A stretch of DNA of 64,000 nt, taken from positions 1-64,000 of the forward strand of contig JAFUZJ010000021.1 of the NCBI GenBank assembly GCA_017476665.1, read 5' to 3'. Both the position numbers and the translations under genes were made by a program. Under the pieces are notes generated by a model. That model searched no databases. It worked only from the letters and a program-made list of their open reading frames with translations, and was not told the origin of the DNA. This DNA is from Lachnospiraceae bacterium (GTDB lineage Bacteria; Bacillota; Clostridia; Lachnospirales; Lachnospiraceae). Of the stretch, positions 24,491 to 50,095 are shown piece by piece (position 1 is the stretch's first letter; each line of letters starts with the position of its first letter).

Positions 24491-25117
24491 ATGGATGGGA
24501 AAGATTTCGGCATTTATGGCGCTCAGACCCCGGTTCTGCCGCAGGTGATGGAGCTGTTTGCGGAGCAGATAGAGGCGTTTCACAGGGAGACGTTTGAGCG
24601 GACAGGATCCCATGTGTATGAACATTTAAATTTCAGGATCAAAGATGAGGAGAGCATGCGGGAGAAGTGCAGACGGCAGGATCTGGCAGAATGTCCGGAG
24701 AATGCGCTCCGCACGATCCACGATGCCATTGGTTTTCGGATCGTATGCCTCTTTCGCGAGGATGTGGATCGTTGTGTGGAATTTTTGCGAAATCTGCCGG
24801 GTTGTCAGGTGGAAACGGAAAAAGACTATATCCGCCAGGCAAAACCGAACGGCTACCGCAGCTACCACATGATCCTTTTATTTACAGCGCCCTTTGAGGA
24901 TGTGGACGGAGCAAATCCGGGGAAATTCTATATTGAGATCCAGCTGCGCACGATCGCCATGGATGCATGGGCTGCACTGGAGCATGAGATCAAATATAAG
25001 CATGATATCAGGAATCCGGAGCTGATTGGCAGAGAGCTGAAACGCTGCGCGGAGGAACTGGCGGCATGTGACGTGTCCATGCAGACGCTGCGCAATCTGG
25101 TAAACAAAGACATATAA
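24491..25117 (+). CDS. small alarmone synthetase (RelQ/YjbM type)
   Basis: 208 residues carrying only a RelA/SpoT synthetase domain, without hydrolase or regulatory domains. It transfers pyrophosphate from ATP to GDP or GTP to give (p)ppGpp. Visible motifs: 'RIKDEESMREKCRR' (substrate-binding region, about 45-60), 'DAIGFRIVC' with the acidic metal ligand, 'KPNGYRSYH', and 'IEIQLRTIAMDAWAALEHEIKYK' with the catalytic Glu. It is the first gene of a set with the two-component pair that follows 32 bases downstream. Confidence 0.92.
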   Translation: MDGKDFGIYGAQTPVLPQVMELFAEQIEAFHRETFERTGSHVYEHLNFRIKDEESMREKCRRQDLAECPENALRTIHDAIGFRIVCLFREDVDRCVEFLRNLPGCQVETEKDYIRQAKPNGYRSYHMILLFTAPFEDVDGANPGKFYIEIQLRTIAMDAWAALEHEIKYKHDIRNPELIGRELKRCAEELAACDVSMQTLRNLVNKDI

Positions 25118-27117: not shown

Positions 27118-27768
27118 TTATTGATAAATCATTGTACCGAAAGCAAAACGAATATCGGGAAGAGAGACAAGGGTGTGTTTTCCGTCATTTTCGCTTCGGC
27201 TGCCAATCCAGACACGGACAACGTCATTTTCATCTGCAGTCATCATAAGGTGTTTATAACCGTTGCTGCTGCTTCCGGAAATTGCTTTGGACATGGCTTT
27301 GCTGCTGAATAACTTAATTTTGCCGCCGGATTTTAAGGTATTTACATCCAAGCCTGCAGCAGCTAATGCATCATATAAATATTCTCCTGATTCAAAATTA
27401 GAGCGCTGTGTCAGCTTGGCATATCCTTTTGTATCTACCTCCAAGATGGGTTCTCCTTTGGTATTCATGTCGATGTTATGATTGGTATTGGTTGTACCGC
27501 CGAAATAATGCGTAAAAAGATATCCGGGCGTATAGTTGCCCAGTACATACTCATATTGCAGGCTGTCATATATTGTTTTTAGTGTGGCAACATCTTTCTC
27601 AACGCGGCTGTTTTCTACATATTTTAGAAATTGCGGAGCGATTATTCCGGTTAATACAGCCATAATAGAAATTACAATGATCAGTTCCACCAAAGAAAAC
27701 CCACGATAATCATGAACAATAAATTTTTCCCCTTTATTATGAATAACAGTATATGATTTCGATTGCAT
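27118..27768 (-). CDS. type IV pilin-like protein (prepilin N-methylation motif)
   Basis: 216 residues. A short leader ends 'YRG', followed by 'FSLVELIIVISIMAVLTGIIAPQF', the class-III (prepilin peptidase) signal with Gly at -1, Phe at +1 and Glu at +5. The rest is a soluble domain of about 160 residues. Such proteins are assembled into type IV pili or pseudopili. No assembly ATPase, platform protein or prepilin peptidase gene is present here, so it is an orphan. The start at 27768 has GGGGG at the right distance; an ATG at 27774 is too close to it. Confidence 0.8.
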   Translation of the reverse strand: MQSKSYTVIHNKGEKFIVHDYRGFSLVELIIVISIMAVLTGIIAPQFLKYVENSRVEKDVATLKTIYDSLQYEYVLGNYTPGYLFTHYFGGTTNTNHNIDMNTKGEPILEVDTKGYAKLTQRSNFESGEYLYDALAAAGLDVNTLKSGGKIKLFSSKAMSKAISGSSSNGYKHLMMTADENDVVRVWIGSRSENDGKHTLVSLPDIRFAFGTMIYQ

Positions 27769-27842
27769 ATTCATACCCCCAATCACCCATATCATCTACT
27801 TATTATATCGGCAGGTTATTAAAAAAATGAAGCAAAGTCCGC

Positions 27843-29495
27843 TTAAATCGGGAATCTCATAAAGTCGGCGAACGGGATTGGACCTGTCGCCACAAATCCC
27901 TGGTAGGCAAAGATATCATATCCTTTGATCATGTCCAGGGTGTCGGCGTCTCCGATCCCTTCCGCACAGATCATGATCTTGGACTCTGTTGCAAAAGCGC
28001 ATAACGCCCGCAGCAGAGCCTTATCTTTTTCGCTGTTTTTCATATGTGCCACAAAATCTCTGCCCACTTTGATGATATCTACCGGCAGGCTACGCACCAG
28101 TCTCAGATCCAGCAGACAGGAACCGTCCAGAGCCACATGGATGCCGCAGGATCTGAGGTAAATGACTTCCCGCTTCAGAAAGTCCGGATTCAGAAATCGG
28201 CAGCGATCCGTCAGTTCCAGACACAGATTTTTACCGGGGAAATTCTGCTCTTTTAAGTAACTCAACAGCTGCTGATGAAATTCCGGCTGCTCTAACTGAC
28301 GATTGGCAAGGTTAATGTTGATGATAAGATCGGGATTCTTCTCCAGTATTTTTTTGCCGTCGCTGATGGCAGTTTTCAGGATCCAATTGCCCAGTCGGGA
28401 GAAAGAACTGTCATTTTCCAGCCAGAGCAGAAATTCTGCGGGAGAAATGCGCCCAAAGGGTTCGCAATCCCATCGCAGGAATGCGCCGCTTCCGATGGTT
28501 TTGTCATCCGAGGCGCGCAGGATCGGTTGGTAGAACAGTGCAAAATTACGGCAGCCGTTTTTTACATCGCTGTGGATGCGATTCACCAGTTCGATGGTCT
28601 TTCCATTGTCGTTCAGGTAATCATTCTGGAGAATGACCGGTTCGCCCTCGGCTTCATTCTGGGACTTGGTCTGGGCAAATTTTGCACAGGCTAAGAGCGC
28701 ATGAACATCTATGGAAGGATCATCTGCCACAACAATCCCTGCGCTCAGGCGGACATTGATCCGGGTGTCATCCACGGTCAGCATATGCAGCGCATAGTTC
28801 CGCTGACCGATATAAAGACGACGCATGTCGGACGCGGTCATGATCTCGGAGCAGAATAAGAGCATGGTGCCTTCTCCGCGAAATAATTTTCCGGCTCCGT
28901 TTGAAAGTTCTTTCAGATGATTTGCCAATGCGGCCAAAACTTTGTTTCCAAAGGTATAGCCATAGAGTGTATTGATCTCAGCAAAATTGGTGGTACCGAT
29001 CAGCATGATCACAGCATGACGCCCTGTCACAAAAAGCTCTCTCAGATACTCCAGAAAACGTACCTGATTGGGCAGACTCGTGGTAGGATCGGTATGGGGC
29101 TCCACCCCCTGGCTGGTGATCACTGCAGCAATATAGGCCGGTGTGCCTGCATAGTCTTTTACTGAAAAATATTTTACCGAGCAGGAGAGGTACTCTCCGT
29201 TTCTGTCATGCAGCCGCCATATAGCGTCTTTTTTTTCCAGGCGCCTTGCGGTCATGGCACTGATATCTGCGGCAAACGAATCTGCGTCTTCCGGAGCCAG
29301 CAGTTCCCGAAACACCTGGGATTGATGATGGACATACTCTCCGGGCAGTGCAAAATCCTTCACCGCCTCAGCAGACCAGCGTGCCACATCACTGTCAATG
29401 TCGAGCATAAAGAAATAACGACTCTTTGTGCCTGTTGAAGTGACAAAACTATCATATAGTTTGCTGATGCGGTAATAAACTGCACTGTTGTCCAT
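27843..29495 (-). CDS. PAS-GGDEF-EAL protein with degenerate active sites
   Basis: 551 residues: a PAS-like N-terminal region (about 15-130), a GGDEF fold (about 140-270) and an EAL fold (about 295-550). The cyclase signature is RGEGT instead of GGDEF. In the EAL domain the signature E-A-L is G-A-F, and the 'DDFGTG' loop is replaced by 'LDGSCLL', so metal binding should be lost; only 'ELTD' and 'AEGI' resemble the active form. It is most likely a non-catalytic c-di-GMP or protein-binding regulator. GGAGGG precedes the ATG at 29495; an upstream in-frame ATG lacks this. Confidence 0.85.
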   Translation of the reverse strand: MDNSAVYYRISKLYDSFVTSTGTKSRYFFMLDIDSDVARWSAEAVKDFALPGEYVHHQSQVFRELLAPEDADSFAADISAMTARRLEKKDAIWRLHDRNGEYLSCSVKYFSVKDYAGTPAYIAAVITSQGVEPHTDPTTSLPNQVRFLEYLRELFVTGRHAVIMLIGTTNFAEINTLYGYTFGNKVLAALANHLKELSNGAGKLFRGEGTMLLFCSEIMTASDMRRLYIGQRNYALHMLTVDDTRINVRLSAGIVVADDPSIDVHALLACAKFAQTKSQNEAEGEPVILQNDYLNDNGKTIELVNRIHSDVKNGCRNFALFYQPILRASDDKTIGSGAFLRWDCEPFGRISPAEFLLWLENDSSFSRLGNWILKTAISDGKKILEKNPDLIININLANRQLEQPEFHQQLLSYLKEQNFPGKNLCLELTDRCRFLNPDFLKREVIYLRSCGIHVALDGSCLLDLRLVRSLPVDIIKVGRDFVAHMKNSEKDKALLRALCAFATESKIMICAEGIGDADTLDMIKGYDIFAYQGFVATGPIPFADFMRFPI

Positions 29496-29630
29496 GATGC
29501 CCTCCTGCATTTTGAGATTTTATATCATATCTATTTCGACATAATCAGAGAAAAAGTTTATGGAATAGGTTGCGATACTGTAAAATTTTTTTTAAAATAA
29601 AAGGTAAGACAAAAAAAGGAGGTAAGGAGC

Positions 29631-30779
29631 ATGGATATGCAGATGTTATATACAATCCTTTATCTTGAGATTAATTTGGTGTCCGTGATTCTGGTCGGTA
29701 TCATCCGGTTTAAGACGGGTGGGATTTCCAAGATGGTGGCACAAAGGAATTTTGCCATGGCTATCGATGCCCAGATTCTTTTCTTTTTGTCGGATACATT
29801 TTGTGTTATGATGCAGAATGGGTTGCTGCCATACAGTGGTACGGGTATCCTGGTGGCGAAGGAACTCTATTTCTTTGCTACAGCGGTGATGTGCTTTTTC
29901 TGGTTTGTCTATTTTGAATATATGCAGGATGCACCGTTTGTGAAGAGCAGGAAGCGGGTGTGGATCGCATCGGGATTGGTATGGATCATGGTATTGCTCC
30001 TGGTGGGCAATCTCTTTACCGGGATTCTGTTCTATGTGGACGGTGCAGGGAGTTATCATAGGGGGCCGCTGTTTGCAATTCAATATCTGTTGTCGTATGT
30101 TTATGTCTTTGTGGCCTGTTTCCGGGCACTGGTGGGAGTTTTTCAGAAAGAGAAGCTCGCCCAGCGCAGATTGCTGATCTCCCTGGCTTTATTTCCCATT
30201 GCACCGGCAATTGCGGGAATATTGCAGTTCCTTTATCCCCAGCTTCCGCTGGCATGTGCGACATTGGCGATCTCTACCCTTGTCATGTATTTGAACTGGG
30301 TGGATGAAATGATCTCGATTGATCCGCTGACCAGATTGAACAATCGCAAACAGCTGGCATATTCCTTTGAGCATTGGAAACATAGTCATGAAGAGGATTC
30401 GGATCTGTATGTGCTTCTGATCGATGCCAACAAATTTAAGGGGATCAACGATACCTACGGTCATATAGAGGGAGATGCTGCGTTGATCCGGATTGCGGAT
30501 GCATTGCGCCTGGGAAGCAAAGAACTCAACAGACGGGCCAATATTGCCAGATATGGCGGAGATGAATTTGTCATGCTGGTGTGGGCGGATAGTCTGGAGG
30601 ATATCACCGGGCTACAGAAAAAGATACAGGAGATCCTTACGGACCTGAATCGGAAGGCAGAGGCGCCGTATGAACTCACTGTGAGTATCGGAGCGGCGAA
30701 GGCCTCCGCTGACATTTCGTTAAAGGATTTGATCGTGCAGGCAGATGAACAGATGTATGATGCAAAGGCGAGGAGATAA
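29631..30779 (+). CDS. membrane diguanylate cyclase
   Basis: 382 residues. Seven or so hydrophobic segments fill residues 1-215. A GGDEF domain follows, starting 'DPLTRLNNRKQL' and carrying the intact signature 'ARYGGDEFVML', so it should make c-di-GMP from two GTP. I see no RxxD inhibitory site at the usual distance before the signature. It is transcribed away from the degenerate GGDEF-EAL gene and converges on the CheX fusion gene. The ATG at 29631 follows AGGAGG; 29637 is also possible. Confidence 0.9.
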   Translation: MDMQMLYTILYLEINLVSVILVGIIRFKTGGISKMVAQRNFAMAIDAQILFFLSDTFCVMMQNGLLPYSGTGILVAKELYFFATAVMCFFWFVYFEYMQDAPFVKSRKRVWIASGLVWIMVLLLVGNLFTGILFYVDGAGSYHRGPLFAIQYLLSYVYVFVACFRALVGVFQKEKLAQRRLLISLALFPIAPAIAGILQFLYPQLPLACATLAISTLVMYLNWVDEMISIDPLTRLNNRKQLAYSFEHWKHSHEEDSDLYVLLIDANKFKGINDTYGHIEGDAALIRIADALRLGSKELNRRANIARYGGDEFVMLVWADSLEDITGLQKKIQEILTDLNRKAEAPYELTVSIGAAKASADISLKDLIVQADEQMYDAKARR

Positions 30780-30836: not shown

Positions 30837-32144
30837 TTACCTCAGTACATCCTGAATATTGGTTAGGATCTCTTCTTCGTTAAACGGTTTGTTAATAAAA
30901 CGTTTTGCACCGGATTTCAATGCCTGGATCAGTTTATCCTGCTGACCGGCAGCAGTGATCATGATCGCCTTTGCTTTCGGATCATATGAGAGGATCTGAT
31001 TCAAGGCTTCCAGACCATCCATCTGCGGCATGGTGATGTCCAGGGTGACAATGTCCGGCTTGCATTTTTTGTAAGCCTCCAGACCGTCTGCGCCGTTGGC
31101 GGCTTCCATCACCACCGTATAGTTTGCTTTTTCTAAAATATTGCGTAGCATGGTGCGGGACATCCTGGAATCGTCCACGATCAGCACGGTGCCTTTGCTG
31201 TCCGCAGATGCGGCGGCAACTTCGCGCTGCATCACATCGCCTAACTGCTCCGGTGTCTCGCCGGCGACAAACTCACTGTTGACGGAGATGAGCACATCGA
31301 TCTTTTTATTTTCCAGATAAACGGGAATGACATAAAAATCACCGGTAGCGGTTTGATTTTTGAAACTCAGAGGCGGCTCCATATCTACATTTGTCCCCTT
31401 TTTGCTCAGCTCGGTGGCAAAGAGACCGCTGGTCACATTGATGAATTCACTCACCGCGTCATAGGTGTCCGCCGTCACGTGATCCATTGCCTCGTGGGAA
31501 AATTCGGTGGCAACTTTTAAGAATTCGCCCTGATCCTCTTCCTCAGCGATGCCGATGAAGACGGAATCATCGCCGGCAAGCTCCTGATAGGACAGATGCG
31601 CGTAAGGAAGTTCCTTCAGATGCTTTGCTTTTTCGATATAATAATCCCGGGAGACAAAACGGGTCAGATTCCTTGCCACAAGTCCTGCAATATCTTTGAT
31701 ATAAGGCTTGGAAGAAAATACAAAGAGCGGGATCAGTTTATCAATGTCATCGGATTTTAAGGCGTCCATTTCGGCGTCCGAGAAGCCGATCTCCTTCTGA
31801 AAGGCATTTAAGTGCTGCTCGATATCGCTGTTTGTCAGACCGGTCAATTCGGTCAGAAGCTGCACAAACTGAAGATATGCATTTCCCTGCTTTGTAAGCA
31901 ATGCGTCCATCTGCGCCGGTGTCAGCAGTTTTTTTTCAATCGCGATATCCCCAAAACGCTTATCCAGCTGACGCTGCAGCTGGTTGATCTCCTCTACCTG
32001 ATCCTCGGTCAACAGCCCCTCTGCAATGGCGATTGTTCCCAGTTTTACGCGAACGGTCATCTGCTTGTCAATGATCTGCTGATAGGTCTCCTCGCTGAGT
32101 AGAGACTGCTTTACCAAATATTTTCCAAATAGTTGGCTGAACAT
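30837..32144 (-). CDS. triple MshEN-like repeat - CheX - receiver fusion
   Basis: 435 residues in three parts. Residues 5-86 hold three 24-residue repeats with 5-residue spacers (5-28, 34-57, 63-86) of the form 'xLGxxxIxxGLLTxxQxxxLxxxQ'; spacing and pattern match the c-di-GMP-binding MshEN motif, though several key positions are changed. Residues about 150-300 are a CheX/CheC-type phosphatase domain with the active-site pattern D-x3-E-x2-N ('DAVSEFIN'). Residues about 315-435 are a complete CheY-like receiver (phospho-Asp in 'TLDITMP', 'ITAA', 'NKPF'). It may dephosphorylate CheY or act on its own receiver, perhaps tuned by c-di-GMP. Confidence 0.8.
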   Translation of the reverse strand: MFSQLFGKYLVKQSLLSEETYQQIIDKQMTVRVKLGTIAIAEGLLTEDQVEEINQLQRQLDKRFGDIAIEKKLLTPAQMDALLTKQGNAYLQFVQLLTELTGLTNSDIEQHLNAFQKEIGFSDAEMDALKSDDIDKLIPLFVFSSKPYIKDIAGLVARNLTRFVSRDYYIEKAKHLKELPYAHLSYQELAGDDSVFIGIAEEEDQGEFLKVATEFSHEAMDHVTADTYDAVSEFINVTSGLFATELSKKGTNVDMEPPLSFKNQTATGDFYVIPVYLENKKIDVLISVNSEFVAGETPEQLGDVMQREVAAASADSKGTVLIVDDSRMSRTMLRNILEKANYTVVMEAANGADGLEAYKKCKPDIVTLDITMPQMDGLEALNQILSYDPKAKAIMITAAGQQDKLIQALKSGAKRFINKPFNEEEILTNIQDVLR

Positions 32145-32351: not shown

Positions 32352-33818
32352 ATGCTGAAAGATTGGGTGAAAGCCAAGAAACCGAGTGATGAGGAAATGA
32401 CTGCCAGATTGCAGAAGAGCCGTGCGCAGCTTGCCAATATGCAGATGGCGATCAAGGAGAAAAAACTGCCTGTGCTGGTGACTTTTGACGGCTGGGGGGC
32501 TGCGGGCAAGGGAAGCGTGCTGGGAAAGGTGATTAAGAACCTGGATCCCAGATTTTATAAGACAGAGACGCTGTCCAAACCGAGCGAGGACGAATTGCGC
32601 CGGCCATTTTTGTACCGCTATTTTATCCGGATTCCAGAAGCGGGGAAATTCTCCTTTTTTGATGACAGCTGGATGAAGGAGGTGACCTCCAACCGGTTGA
32701 TGGGGCACACAAAGGCGGAGGAGTATCACAGACAATTGACCTCCATCAAGCGTTTTGAGAGGCAGCTTACGGACAACGGATATCTTGTGGTCAAATTTTT
32801 CTTCCACATTTCCGAGGCGGAACAAAAAGAGCGTCTGAAGGAACTGGAAAAGGAGAAAAGTACTGCCTGGAGAGTGGAGAAGTGGGATCGCTGGCAGAAT
32901 GAGCACTATGACAAGTGCATGGATGTCTATGACGATTACCTTGAGGCCACCAATCAGTTTGTGGCACCGTGGTATTTTATCGATGCCAAAAACAAAAAGT
33001 GGGCGGAATTGCAGGTGACGGAGCAGCTGGTCAAGAGTATTGAGATTGCGCTGCAAAACACCGGCCGCGCTGCGGCAATCCTGCAGAACACATTCCCGTT
33101 GAAGCAGATGCCGAAACTAAGTGAAATCAAGCTGAATAAGACGGTTGCGGATGCGGAGTATGAGAAAGAGCTGGAGGAGTTGCAGGCACGTTTGGCAGAC
33201 CTGCACAACCGGATCTATCAGAAGAAGATTCCCGTGATCATCACTTACGAGGGCTGGGATGCCGCGGGGAAAGGCGGTAATATCAAGCGTCTGACTGCCG
33301 CGCTGGATCCCCGGGGATTTGAGGTGCATCCCATCGCATCGCCGGAACCCAGGGAGAAGAACAGACACTATCTCTGGAGATTCTGGAACCGCCTGCCCAA
33401 GGACGGACATATTGCCATTTTTGACCGCACCTGGTACGGCAGAGTTATGGTGGAGCGGCTGGAGGGATTCTGCTCCGAGAACGACTGGCAGAGAGCCTAT
33501 AACGAGATCAACGAATTTGAGAAAGAGCTGTGCGATTGGGGCGCTGTGCTGGTGAAATTCTGGGTTCATATTGACAAAGATACTCAGCTGGCACGTTTCA
33601 CGGATCGTCAGAATACCCCGGAGAAGCAGTGGAAGATCACCGATGAGGATTGGCGCAACCGGGAGAAGTGGGATGCCTATGAGGTTGCGGTGGATGAGAT
33701 GATCCAGAAGACCAGCACGGTGTTTGCACCCTGGCATATTCTGGAGTCCAACGATAAGCATTATGCGAGGCTGAAAGCACTGAAGACGGTGATCGAGGAG
33801 ATTGAGAAGAAATTATAA
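32352..33818 (+). CDS. pap: polyphosphate:AMP phosphotransferase (two PPK2 domains)
   Basis: 488 residues with two PPK2 domains in tandem, the layout of PAP enzymes that make ADP from AMP and polyphosphate. Walker A segments are 'DGWGAAGKGS' (about 46-55) in the first half and 'EGWDAAGKGG' (about 300-309) in the second. The second half keeps 'DRTWYGRVMVERLEGF', the typical lid region, while the first has 'DDSWMKEV', suggesting that the C-terminal domain is the better catalyst. It is cytoplasmic, and appears to be a single gene with a G-rich ribosome site. Confidence 0.9.
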   Translation: MLKDWVKAKKPSDEEMTARLQKSRAQLANMQMAIKEKKLPVLVTFDGWGAAGKGSVLGKVIKNLDPRFYKTETLSKPSEDELRRPFLYRYFIRIPEAGKFSFFDDSWMKEVTSNRLMGHTKAEEYHRQLTSIKRFERQLTDNGYLVVKFFFHISEAEQKERLKELEKEKSTAWRVEKWDRWQNEHYDKCMDVYDDYLEATNQFVAPWYFIDAKNKKWAELQVTEQLVKSIEIALQNTGRAAAILQNTFPLKQMPKLSEIKLNKTVADAEYEKELEELQARLADLHNRIYQKKIPVIITYEGWDAAGKGGNIKRLTAALDPRGFEVHPIASPEPREKNRHYLWRFWNRLPKDGHIAIFDRTWYGRVMVERLEGFCSENDWQRAYNEINEFEKELCDWGAVLVKFWVHIDKDTQLARFTDRQNTPEKQWKITDEDWRNREKWDAYEVAVDEMIQKTSTVFAPWHILESNDKHYARLKALKTVIEEIEKKL

Positions 33819-46969: not shown

Positions 46970-49900
46970 TTATTTCTTTTCCTGGTTTTCCGAACTGTGC
47001 AGTCCCAGGCTTTTTTGGAATTCTTCACTTTTGCGCGTCTGTTCATCCTTGGCTGCATCGATGTCACTGCTTTCCGGCACGGACTGCATGGTGGCGGTTC
47101 CGATGGCGGCAACGGCAGCGTCCACTTTTTCCTTGTCCAGTTCATTCTCCTCTGCCAGCTCCAACAGGGCGTCGACAACCTCTGGCTCCAGCTGTGTGCC
47201 GCGGATACGGCGTATCTCATCCAGCACATCGCAGAGCAGCATTTGCTTGCGGTAAGGCCTGGTGGAATACATGGCATCAAATGTGTCCGCTACGGCGATA
47301 ACTCTTGCCACTTCGGGGATATCTTCCCCCTTTAGACCATGTGGATAGCCTTTGCCATCCATGCGTTCATGGTGACAGCCGGCGCCTACCGCCAGATCCT
47401 GCACTACGTCGATGCTTTCCAAAAGCTCCTGGCCTTTGGCTGCATGGGATTTCATGATCACATATTCCTCGTCGTTCAGCCGCTCGGGTTTGTTCAGGAT
47501 GGCGTCGGGAATGCTCAGCTTGCCAATGTCGTGGAGCAGAGCGGTATTGTAAAAGTCGTTGATCTGCTCGTCTGTATAACCGCGTTTTTCAGCTAGCTTG
47601 GTGGCCAGCAATTTGGTGTAATAAGCCACGCGGAAGGAGTGCCCACGGTTCATGGTATCTCGCATGTCAATGCACTTGGCAAAGGTATGCATGATCTGAT
47701 TGATGTATTCCAGGTCTTCCGCCTGCTTTTCCAGAAGGGCTTCGTTCTTTTTCTTGAAATGGCGCCAGATGATGAATGTAATACACAGGATGCAGGCTGC
47801 CATCAGGATGATCCAGAACAACATGCTCTCATAGGGGGAAGTCTCTTTTACAATGGGCAGAAGGATGGATGTCTCAATCTGTCCGGTCTCATCATCGATC
47901 ACATCCAGATGGAAAACATATCTGCCTCCGTCCAGATTTGTATAGACCACGGGCTGCATTTCCTGCTTGGTGGTGTGGATCGGGCTTTTGTCGAAGTTTT
48001 CCAGGTAATAGCTGATCCTGGGATTGCTTAAGCCATAAGTGAGGGCATAGGTGTTGATGGTGAGACGCTTACTGCCCGCCGGAATGGATACGGTGCTGCC
48101 GGGATCAAAAAAGATGCGTTTTCCGTCCAAGTCCACGCAGGGGATCGCCAGTTTTACATCCCGGTTGGAATTGTCATTCGCATTGATATCCACCTTACAG
48201 ACGCCGGTCGTGCCGGAAATATAAAGATTCCCTTTTTCATCCAAATAGTTTCTGGAGTTGCCGGTGGCGATATAAGGAAGACCGCTCCGGACATTATAGA
48301 AGCTGTATTCAATATCCTGGTTTGCCAACAGTTCCGCCACAGTGGTGATATAGATACCGTTGGAGGAGAGCACCCAGGCACCGCCATGGTCATTAAAATA
48401 AATGTCGTAGTTGTTGGAGTACGGGAAGTTGTCTACTGCGGTGAGACTGCCATCCTTCATGTATTGAATGGAGTTGGAGGTGATCAGCCAGAAAACCTCT
48501 CGCTCGGAATCCCATTTAATGCGCATGACAACTTCACTGGTCAGTCCGTCTTCGTGGCCGATGCGGGATACTTTGTTCCCGTCGATCACATAAATGCCGT
48601 CTCCGTCGCTTCCCAGATAGAGCTTATGATCCGGTCCTTCTTCCACCGAGAGGATCTCTGTGGTGCTGATGCCGTTCTCCTGTCCGTAATGCGCCGTCAC
48701 TTCCCCGTTTTTCACAAGGAAGAGACCGTTGCTGGTGGTGGCGGCAATACTGCCGTCAGAGCATTCCATCATGGCGCGCACCCGTCCGGAGGAATTCAGA
48801 CCGTTTGATTCGTTATAGGTAAAAATACTTCCGTCCCCGGGGCAGTAACATACCAGACCGTATTCTCCATGGGTGCAGAACCAGATATTGCCACGGGAGT
48901 CGTTCTTGATACAGCGGATGCGGATGCCGGCTAACATTTCGGAGAGTTCATTGGTCACGGGTTCCAAAGAGGTATTGTCCAAAATCGTCAGCCCCTTGTC
49001 CGTACCCAGATAGAGAAGTCCATTATTAATGCAGGTGGAGTTTACCACCATGGAATTCAGACCGGCAAATTTACTGATATCTGTGAAACGGTCCGGTACC
49101 AGCTTCAAGACACCCTGCCTGGTGGATGTAAACCAGATGTTCCCCTCGTGGTCAGTCATAATATTGCCAATGGAATTGTTCATGGGGACATCGGAGAGCT
49201 CCTGAAACCGTCCGAATTCGTCAAGATAACCGATGCCGTTTGTGGCAGACATCCACAATCGGTTATTGATCTTTAAGATCGCGTTGAGGTTTTTCAGGGA
49301 ACCGGTATCCTGCCGTTTTGTCACAGTCATATCCCGGGAAATATCTACCGTCAGGAACTCGGAGCCTGTGGTACCCATGTACATGATGCTGGCATCGTCC
49401 GGATTGGGATAAATGGTGTTTACGGGATCACTGCCGAATTTTTCCGGGTGATAAAATGCGCTGATCCGGAGCTTTTCAATCTCAAAGACGGCACCGTTTA
49501 ACGTCAGACCGTAAATTTTTCCGGTGCTGTCGCGCTGAAGCTCGGTTATGTACTCCAGATTGACCTGGGGATCGTCAATGATATGGATATCCATATCACT
49601 TCCGATGTAGACCAGACCCTGCGTGGTAGCCACAATGATGTTGCCGTTCGGATCTTCTGTGATGCAGCGGATGGAATAGGACTTCATGCCCTCCACTCTG
49701 CCGTAATTCTTGATCTCTCCATGGTCATAGTAACAGATGCCGTTCTCGTTGGTCCCAATCCAGATGCGGTCTTTCGAGTCCACAAAGAGACTGAACACGC
49801 TGGAGATGCCGCTGGAGGAATCAAAGCGCTGGAAATTCGAGCCGTCATAGAGGATGAGTCCACTGTAGCCGCCCAGCCAGATGAAACCGTCTGCACTCTG

Positions 49901-50095
49901 TACAATGGCATTCGCCTCTGAGGTTGGCAGACCGTTGGCGGAATCGTAGAGGATTGCCGTATAGTCTGTACCTTTCCCAAGAATGTCCCTGCGGCCGTTT
50001 CCTGCCGCCTGCGTCCGAAAAGAGAACGCTGTGACGGAGGTGACTGCCAGTGCAAATGCCAGCAGGAGAGCAAATAATTCTTTTGTTTTTTTCAT
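46970..50095 (-). CDS. beta-propeller sensor with HD-GYP c-di-GMP phosphodiesterase
   Basis: 1041 residues. A signal peptide (1-30) is followed by some fourteen propeller repeats of the 'NIWFTT'/'IWIGT' type (Reg_prop, about 45-660), as in hybrid two-component sugar sensors, then a Y_Y_Y-type beta domain (about 670-760), one membrane helix (about 768-788) and a cytoplasmic HD-GYP domain (about 805-985). The HD-GYP residues are intact: 'HSFRVAYYT', 'LLHDIGKL', and 'CHHERMDGKGYP'. It should hydrolyse c-di-GMP in response to an external ligand, probably a glycan. Putting an HD-GYP output on this sensor instead of a histidine kinase is less common. Confidence 0.9.
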   Translation of the reverse strand: MKKTKELFALLLAFALAVTSVTAFSFRTQAAGNGRRDILGKGTDYTAILYDSANGLPTSEANAIVQSADGFIWLGGYSGLILYDGSNFQRFDSSSGISSVFSLFVDSKDRIWIGTNENGICYYDHGEIKNYGRVEGMKSYSIRCITEDPNGNIIVATTQGLVYIGSDMDIHIIDDPQVNLEYITELQRDSTGKIYGLTLNGAVFEIEKLRISAFYHPEKFGSDPVNTIYPNPDDASIMYMGTTGSEFLTVDISRDMTVTKRQDTGSLKNLNAILKINNRLWMSATNGIGYLDEFGRFQELSDVPMNNSIGNIMTDHEGNIWFTSTRQGVLKLVPDRFTDISKFAGLNSMVVNSTCINNGLLYLGTDKGLTILDNTSLEPVTNELSEMLAGIRIRCIKNDSRGNIWFCTHGEYGLVCYCPGDGSIFTYNESNGLNSSGRVRAMMECSDGSIAATTSNGLFLVKNGEVTAHYGQENGISTTEILSVEEGPDHKLYLGSDGDGIYVIDGNKVSRIGHEDGLTSEVVMRIKWDSEREVFWLITSNSIQYMKDGSLTAVDNFPYSNNYDIYFNDHGGAWVLSSNGIYITTVAELLANQDIEYSFYNVRSGLPYIATGNSRNYLDEKGNLYISGTTGVCKVDINANDNSNRDVKLAIPCVDLDGKRIFFDPGSTVSIPAGSKRLTINTYALTYGLSNPRISYYLENFDKSPIHTTKQEMQPVVYTNLDGGRYVFHLDVIDDETGQIETSILLPIVKETSPYESMLFWIILMAACILCITFIIWRHFKKKNEALLEKQAEDLEYINQIMHTFAKCIDMRDTMNRGHSFRVAYYTKLLATKLAEKRGYTDEQINDFYNTALLHDIGKLSIPDAILNKPERLNDEEYVIMKSHAAKGQELLESIDVVQDLAVGAGCHHERMDGKGYPHGLKGEDIPEVARVIAVADTFDAMYSTRPYRKQMLLCDVLDEIRRIRGTQLEPEVVDALLELAEENELDKEKVDAAVAAIGTATMQSVPESSDIDAAKDEQTRKSEEFQKSLGLHSSENQEKK

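Follow-up and report, generated by a model that had tools for sequence, protein, structure and literature searches.

A CheX family with an MshEN-type repeat array and a dedicated CheY: a candidate link between cyclic dinucleotides and chemotaxis in Lachnospiraceae

Introduction

Can one protein read a cyclic dinucleotide and set the phosphorylation of CheY, and so couple biofilm signalling to chemotaxis? The question is raised by a gene in a 64,000-nucleotide stretch of DNA from a Lachnospiraceae bacterium (GenBank assembly GCA_017476665.1, contig JAFUZJ010000021.1, positions 1 to 64,000; hereafter the window), in which an earlier note had described three repeats with the architecture of MshEN, the domain that binds cyclic di-GMP (c-di-GMP), fused to a CheX phosphatase and a CheY-like receiver. 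The open reading frame (ORF 30837-32144, minus strand) begins with an ATG at 32144, has a stop codon ending at 30837, is immediately preceded by GGGAGGG on its 5' side, and encodes 435 amino acids (aa). In the reading that we favour, with moderate confidence, the product would be a CheX gated by a cyclic dinucleotide and acting on its own CheY; the ligand, the direction of its effect and the substrate are what we infer.

Results and discussion

A four-unit repeat array related to MshEN

The 24-residue units at residues 5-28, 34-57 and 63-86 lie exactly where the earlier note had placed them, with spacers of precisely five residues (29-33 and 58-62), and the repeat they form is far above chance: their summed BLOSUM62 score is 91, against a best-register null with a mean of -18.5, a standard deviation (SD) of 11.0 and a maximum of 28 (500 shuffles of residues 1-90). 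All three claimed units thus exist, but they are not the whole array. When a position matrix built solely from units 1-3 was slid along 84 aligned family proteins, start 92 reached a family mean score of 7.2 against a mean of -22.8 (SD 4.3, maximum -10.0) for other starts, and ranked best from 88 onward in 75 of the 84. In the window protein this unit is weak (score -2.1, rank fifth) and unrecognizable by itself. Because start 92 stands out family-wide and only weakly in the window protein, we regard the repeat domain as a four-unit array whose last unit is worn in the window copy; an array of three units only is ruled out by the fourth in register at residues 92-115. Over residues 5-115, insertions occur in three of the 84 proteins (1, 1 and 4 residues) and deletions in none. 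The 84-protein counts, here and below, drop five of 89 loci, namely L006 (contig edge), L213 (short ORF) and L243, L245 and L246 (no repeats), all of which carry a fused or adjacent CheY.

An AlphaFold2 model of the 435-aa protein (55-row alignment; mean predicted local distance difference test score 93.4, predicted template modelling score 0.81) folds this region into four hairpins, made by the helix pairs 2-12/18-28, 35-41/47-60, 64-70/76-84 and 89-100/105-119. The top fold match of the repeat region is MshE with c-di-GMP (0.9 Å over 55 columns), and the unrelated helical fold that would have spoken against the earlier note was not obtained. At the level of whole sequences, a profile of the repeats matched Vibrio cholerae MshE (5HTL) with an E-value of 7.6e-7 and Thermus thermophilus PilF, its best PDB match, with 4.2e-8 (best stretch 304-380). 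Against 25 pairs of motifs taken from PilB-sized proteins in this bacterial family, hhalign aligned the repeats without gaps at a probability of 97.8 and an E-value of 1e-12; the motif pattern missed 5 of 30 PilB-type loci in this 25-pair set, and 9 of 30 in the set of 21 used for the residue counts below. Units 2 and 3 have the two 24-residue motifs with a five-residue spacer that mark the MshEN N-terminal subdomain, along with its helical-hairpin fold, and on sequence comparison the repeats are homologous to that subdomain.

The Pfam MshEN model (PF05157) matches neither the 435-aa protein at E <=1 nor anything in its own genome, and is absent among the families listed (the best 25 of 63) for 55 relatives. 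This is not evidence against MshEN homology, because the model covers the other subdomain: in PilB-sized frames its matches fall after the motifs, in the part that the 435-aa protein lacks. Matches of the relatives to DUF4388 (43 of 55, best 6e-7) and FumaraseC_C (48 of 55, best 2e-6) we attribute to a likeness among helical hairpins, though DUF4388 may be distantly related.

Ligand residues and an altered half-site

In MshE numbering (PMC5013675), K34 and R63 correspond to Arg9 and Arg38, G36 and G65 to Gly11 and Gly40, and Q57 and Q86 to Gln32 and Gln61, so that units 2 and 3 both have Arg or Lys at motif position 1, Gly at 3 and Gln at 24. Among the 84 proteins Gly is found in 81 (unit 2) and 80 (unit 3), Gln in 81 and 81, and Lys or Arg in 79 and 75. 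Unit 1 has Arg or Lys at position 1 in none of the 84 and Gln at position 24 in 32. The first helix, as modelled, begins at motif position 2 in units 2 and 3, and three residues ahead of position 1 in units 1 and 4. For the PilF domain GSPII-A, measurable binding is described as needing both Gln and the Arg, and high affinity as needing Gly, with a long first helix contributing to the block on c-di-GMP binding (PMC12002112); Lys or Leu can stand in for the first Arg (PMC11731258). Units 1 and 4 look ligand-incompetent.

What weighs against binding is the state of motif positions 17 and 21, where MshEN motifs carry Leu or a close residue. In unit 2, V50 and N54 stand where MshE has Leu25 and Leu29, and the change is general. 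Outside a clade in which CheY precedes CheX (the CheY-first clade, see below; n = 54), the Leu25 equivalent is Ala in 35, Val in 14, Thr in 4 and Ser in 1, and Asn takes the place of Leu29 in 47; within it (n = 30), the first is Val in 26, Ile in 3 and Ala in 1, and the second His in 13, Cys in 5, Val in 4 and other residues in the remainder. PilB-type motifs of the same bacterial family have Leu in 21/21 and 18/21 at these places. Of the two half-sites, one has a normal look and the other looks rebuilt. Since the half-site with V50 and N54 departs from consensus, c-di-GMP binding is not to be assumed, and because of this rebuilding we class the array as a homologue of the c-di-GMP-binding MshEN domains, one that may act like them, and not as a member. 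Of the architecture claimed in the earlier note, the homology is supported, with ligand residues confined to units 2 and 3.

CheX and a dedicated CheY

The intact D-x3-E-x2-N site reported for the CheX domain is present as D229, E233 and N236, in a Pfam CheX match at residues 205-264 (2.7e-6; 27.8 bits, cut-off 27) that is accompanied by a CheC-like match. The model has an alpha/beta region here, with the motif on a long helix (225-248), although a fold search with the full-length model returned only receivers among the matches listed. A family profile matched the CheX proteins of Thermotoga maritima (1XKO, 5.2e-5) and Borrelia (3HZH_B, 4.3e-4), and 52 of 55 relatives match Pfam CheX at E <=1, so that both a sequence match and the Glu-x2-Asn site place the domain in CheX. 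The catalytic residues of CheX are Glu and Asn. The Asn is kept in 84 of 84 proteins, and of the 54 proteins not in the CheY-first clade, 53 keep Glu and 53 keep Asp; within that clade Glu is replaced by Asp in 25 of 30 and Asp by Ala in 28 of 30.

The receiver, behind a less certainly modelled segment (301-310), is complete, as the earlier note had it: Response_reg matches residues 320-430 at 4.1e-31, and within a receiver fold D324 and D325 (the acidic pair), D369 (the phospho-Asp), T397 and K419 are all present. It belongs, however, to a second CheY and not to the flagellar one. CheX is fused to or beside a dedicated CheY in 81 of the 84 proteins, as a fused receiver in 11, a same-strand CheY gene after it in 40 and one before it in 30; for the other three (L113, L117, L129) no CheY was found nearby. 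The five receiver residues are intact in 80 of these 81 (Thr or Ser accepted at 397). Gaps between the CheX and CheY genes run from -266 to 190, most of them from -13 to 57, with start codons assigned mechanically. The fused form is a single clade (11/11, support 0.98) and the CheY-first form a separate one (30/30, support 0.91); two further fused copies (L281, L282) stand outside all counts and trees. The pairing does not require the repeats, since L243 (G008:C28), L245 (G470) and L246 (G228) encode CheX proteins of 194-222 aa that lack them and have a CheY gene 11-106 base pairs (bp) away.

Another contig of the same genome has two FliM/FliN-type matches with a CheY right behind, CheW-type matches and a second CheX/CheC-type match. 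The CheY behind the FliN-type match (C52:37658-38002) is 43% identical to the fused receiver. In a receiver tree of 14 genomes, the 17 other CheYs form a clade of their own (17/17, support 0.95) apart from the CheX companions; the tree took in 30 of 36 receiver matches (six were without a locus) and six CheY-first entries, one of which is duplicated by the companion L278. The separate CheY at the FliN-type match and the tree clade rule out the fused receiver as the flagellar CheY, and because the 17 other CheYs stand apart from the companions we regard it as a dedicated second CheY, distinct from the flagellar protein.

Distribution, and a carrier without chemotaxis genes

In the survey of the domain combination that the earlier note had proposed, the N-terminal profile matched 69 of 200 genomes of the host family (Lachnospiraceae, judging by named relatives; 199 genera), three of them as fragments only (G016, G079, G115); the combination itself had already appeared in print (PMC5013675). 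CheW is found in 112 of the 200, including 68 of the 69 carriers and 44 of the 131 non-carriers (Fisher 5.9e-22, uncorrected for relatedness), which bears out the supposed connection to chemotaxis: by gene content the family is nearly confined to genomes with chemotaxis genes. Genomes with CheW have a median of at least 17 GGDEF matches with the family and 13.5 without it (p 0.002), a comparison we did not use, matches being counted up to 17 per genome.

In a sample of the phylum, full-length matches occur in 12 of 299 genomes, eight of which lie outside the host family. The 32 genomes behind other loci include four with full-length matches (two Lachnospiraceae metagenome-assembled genomes, a Paenibacillus and a Pelosinus) and three spirochaete genomes with CheX-only matches. 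The named carriers, Paenibacillus athensensis MEC069 and Pelosinus fermentans JBW45, both have CheY directly before CheX. At two spirochaete loci, L285 (G518) and L289 (G511), frames of 90 and 66 aa match the region of units 2 and 3 only and are possible stand-alone MshEN N-terminal subdomains; no ORF of at least 90 aa matched the family there.

The sole carrier without a CheW match, genome G070 (99% complete), has no FliM/FliN match either. Its CheX carries D229 to N and E233 to D, the only such case among the 54 proteins outside the CheY-first clade, and its receiver D325 to A and Thr/Ser397 to V, the only such case among the 81 paired receivers, with the ligand residues of the repeats unchanged. 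This single case fits a decay of the phosphate chemistry after the loss of chemotaxis.

A possible mechanism and its alternatives

If the protein works as we favour, c-di-GMP or a close relative would bind between units 2 and 3, and the outer units 1 and 4 would cap the array in place of the MshEN C-terminal subdomain. Binding would shift the helical linker and hence the access of CheX to the phospho-receiver. CheA would phosphorylate the attached receiver and CheX drain it, forming a c-di-GMP-gated phosphate sink; alternatively, CheX might work in trans on phosphorylated flagellar CheY (CheY-P), with the attached receiver competing. By either route c-di-GMP would set the amount of CheY-P that reaches the motor.

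A different account, which we consider possible but doubtful, is that the repeats descend from MshEN without binding c-di-GMP and serve as a helical docking or dimerization platform that takes CheX and CheY to the chemoreceptor array or the motor. Loss of binding would suit a half-site I in which almost every family protein has both Leu positions changed, outer units that look non-binding and a cyclase neighbour that is not conserved (see Genomic neighbourhood), and it has a natural precedent in PilF GSPII-A (PMC12002112); CheX and CheY also occur together without repeats at L243, L245 and L246. GSPII-A, however, has lost both Gln and the second Arg, all of which are kept in this family, and a scaffold need not keep the ligand Gly and Gln in 80 or 81 of 84 proteins, with a Lys or Arg at position 1, in units 2 and 3 only. 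Nor would it explain why G070 retains the ligand residues despite changed CheX and receiver sites.

Less probable again is a scheme with the receiver as the input, in which a receiver phosphorylated by CheA switches CheX, as the CheB receiver controls its esterase, while the repeats tune or localize the protein and c-di-GMP plays no direct part. The near-constant receiver residues and the joint alteration of the CheX and receiver sites in G070 would agree with this, and receivers fused to CheA are commonly phosphate sinks (PMC10542144); yet the scheme leaves the conserved MshEN ligand residues unexplained, and 70 of the 84 have their receiver encoded separately. That the asymmetric site reads another cyclic dinucleotide, such as hybrid 3',3'-cGAMP, through the Asn54 half-site is improbable: the contrast between a canonical half-site and one that is remodelled consistently (Asn54 in 47 of the 54 proteins not in the CheY-first clade) and the weak cGAMP binding reported for MshEN (PMC5013675) would favour it, but both halves retain the Gly residues whose backbone donors read guanine O6/N7, and the CheY-first clade has His, Cys or Val in place of Asn54.

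A gated CheX acting on its own CheY remains our preferred reading. Its fullest form, which we put forward only speculatively, is that a four-hairpin, asymmetric cyclic-dinucleotide sensor gates a CheX serving a private and not the motor CheY, as a c-di-GMP-controlled phosphate drain on the chemotaxis kinase that would occur in many motile Bacillota and, in a single lineage, form one fused chain. Should the gating prove real, the step of the chemotaxis phosphorelay on which c-di-GMP acts would be that of removal, in the 69 carrier genomes of the host family and also in the cultured relatives P. fermentans JBW45 and P. athensensis. The protein, with c-di-GMP binding only predicted, may let a swimming bacterium adapt its steering to its biofilm state. 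The family offers natural tests: fused forms can be set against split ones, copies with repeats against copies lacking them, and active sites having Glu against those having Asp, and one carrier lacks chemotaxis genes altogether.

Genomic neighbourhood

The neighbours that the earlier note had named, a cyclase and a degenerate GGDEF-EAL protein, are both there (Table 1), but the arrangement was found again only in two close relatives (L003, L006) among the 89 loci, some of which have short flanks. Neither gene is in an operon with the CheX gene, since the cyclase is convergent to it and the GGDEF-EAL gene lies beyond the cyclase; an operon of CheX gene and cyclase is ruled out by that orientation, the arrangement recurring in L003 and L006 alone. 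A conserved c-di-GMP neighbourhood is also ruled out, a GGDEF/EAL gene lying within 5 kilobases (kb) in only 14 of the 84 loci (a looser similarity cluster has 16 within 4.5 kb). At L114, L115, L124, L143 and L150 a divergent GGDEF-EAL gene (570-816 aa) stands 115-201 bp upstream of the CheX gene; because all five sit in one seven-member group (low support, 0.48), we take the association to be local.

Adjoining the degenerate GGDEF-EAL gene is the gene of a protein that resembles type IV pilins and carries a prepilin methylation motif (27118-27795, minus; Pfam N_methyl 4.1e-7). A 1041-aa protein with two-component regulator propeller repeats and HD_5 (46970-50095, minus) may be a c-di-GMP phosphodiesterase of the HD-GYP type. 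A member of the PPK2 polyphosphate kinase family, matched in two stretches (32352-33818, plus), is encoded divergently from the CheX gene, and 24491-25117 (plus) encodes a small RelA/SpoT-domain protein. An Rfam scan of the window at gathering scores gave no riboswitch or other RNA family.

Table 1. Features of the CheX gene and its two neighbours in the window.
Feature	Coordinates	Strand	Basis
Whole gene, 435 aa: four MshEN-type units, helical linker, CheX, receiver	30837..32144	-	ORF calls, AlphaFold2
Unit 1 (residues 5-28), degenerate; first helix continues through position 1	32061..32132	-	Family counts, AlphaFold2
Unit 2 (residues 34-57), aligned to MshE motif I; K34, G36, Q57 kept; V50/N54 replace Leu25/Leu29	31974..32045	-	
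Unit 3 (residues 63-86), aligned to MshE motif II; R63, G65, L83, Q86 kept	31887..31958	-	
Unit 4 (residues 92-115), degenerate fourth hairpin, same 29-residue register	31800..31871	-	Matrix scan, AlphaFold2
Linker, three helices (residues 123-164)	31653..31778	-	AlphaFold2
CheX domain (about residues 168-290)	31275..31643	-	Pfam above cut-off, family profile
CheX active-site motif D229-A-V-S-E233-F-I-N236	31437..31460	-	Sequence
CheY-like receiver (about residues 319-435), all five phosphorylation-site residues	30840..31190	-	Pfam, sequence
Diguanylate cyclase, intact RYGGDEF, convergent to CheX gene	29631..30779	+	Pfam, sequence
GGDEF-EAL protein; motifs RGEGT, GAFLRW, ALDGS degenerate against the consensus	27843..29510	-	Pfam, sequence

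Comparison with known systems

The CheX proteins of T. maritima and B. burgdorferi (1XKO, 3HZH), which act on CheY-P, resemble the present family in sequence profile and in the Glu-x2-Asn site; the N-terminal repeat array, the helical linker and the fused or adjacent dedicated CheY are features of the present family. In the literature listed, c-di-GMP reaches chemotaxis through the CheY-like protein Cle, the PilZ adaptor MapZ and a PilZ chemoreceptor. Caulobacter Cle (PMC5677366) shares with our protein the meeting of c-di-GMP with a CheY-like protein, but binds the ligand through a C-terminal extension, whereas here no extension follows the last receiver helix (423-434) and the chain stops at residue 435. 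Among the matches listed for MshEN with CheX, CheX with c-di-GMP and MshEN with CheY, no title or abstract opening names a c-di-GMP-controlled CheY-P phosphatase. The domains themselves have been put together before: one sentence of a 2016 paper states that MshEN is associated with CheX and with receivers (PMC5013675), a sentence that goes without the four-unit array, the private CheY or an analysis of the family.

Like V. cholerae MshE (PDB 5HTL, PMC5013675), the repeats consist of 24-residue motifs with a five-residue spacer and helical hairpins, and residues 34-86 align to MshE 9-61 with no gaps; they differ in having four units and no MshEN C-terminal subdomain, CheX and a receiver in place of the ATPase, and mostly Ala or Val and Asn at the Leu25 and Leu29 equivalents. 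The earlier note had seen a departure from MshEN in the presence of more than two motifs, which is not new, since GSPII-C of T. thermophilus PilF already has three consecutive 24-residue motifs (PMC11731258); GSPII-C, however, belongs to a pilus ATPase and binds c-di-GMP, and here there are four units of which two are degenerate. As far as the literature matches listed go, what is new in this family is its array of four units, the rebuilding of one half-site, the constant pairing with a private CheY, the restriction of the fused form to a single clade, and the changed CheX and receiver sites of the carrier that lacks chemotaxis genes.
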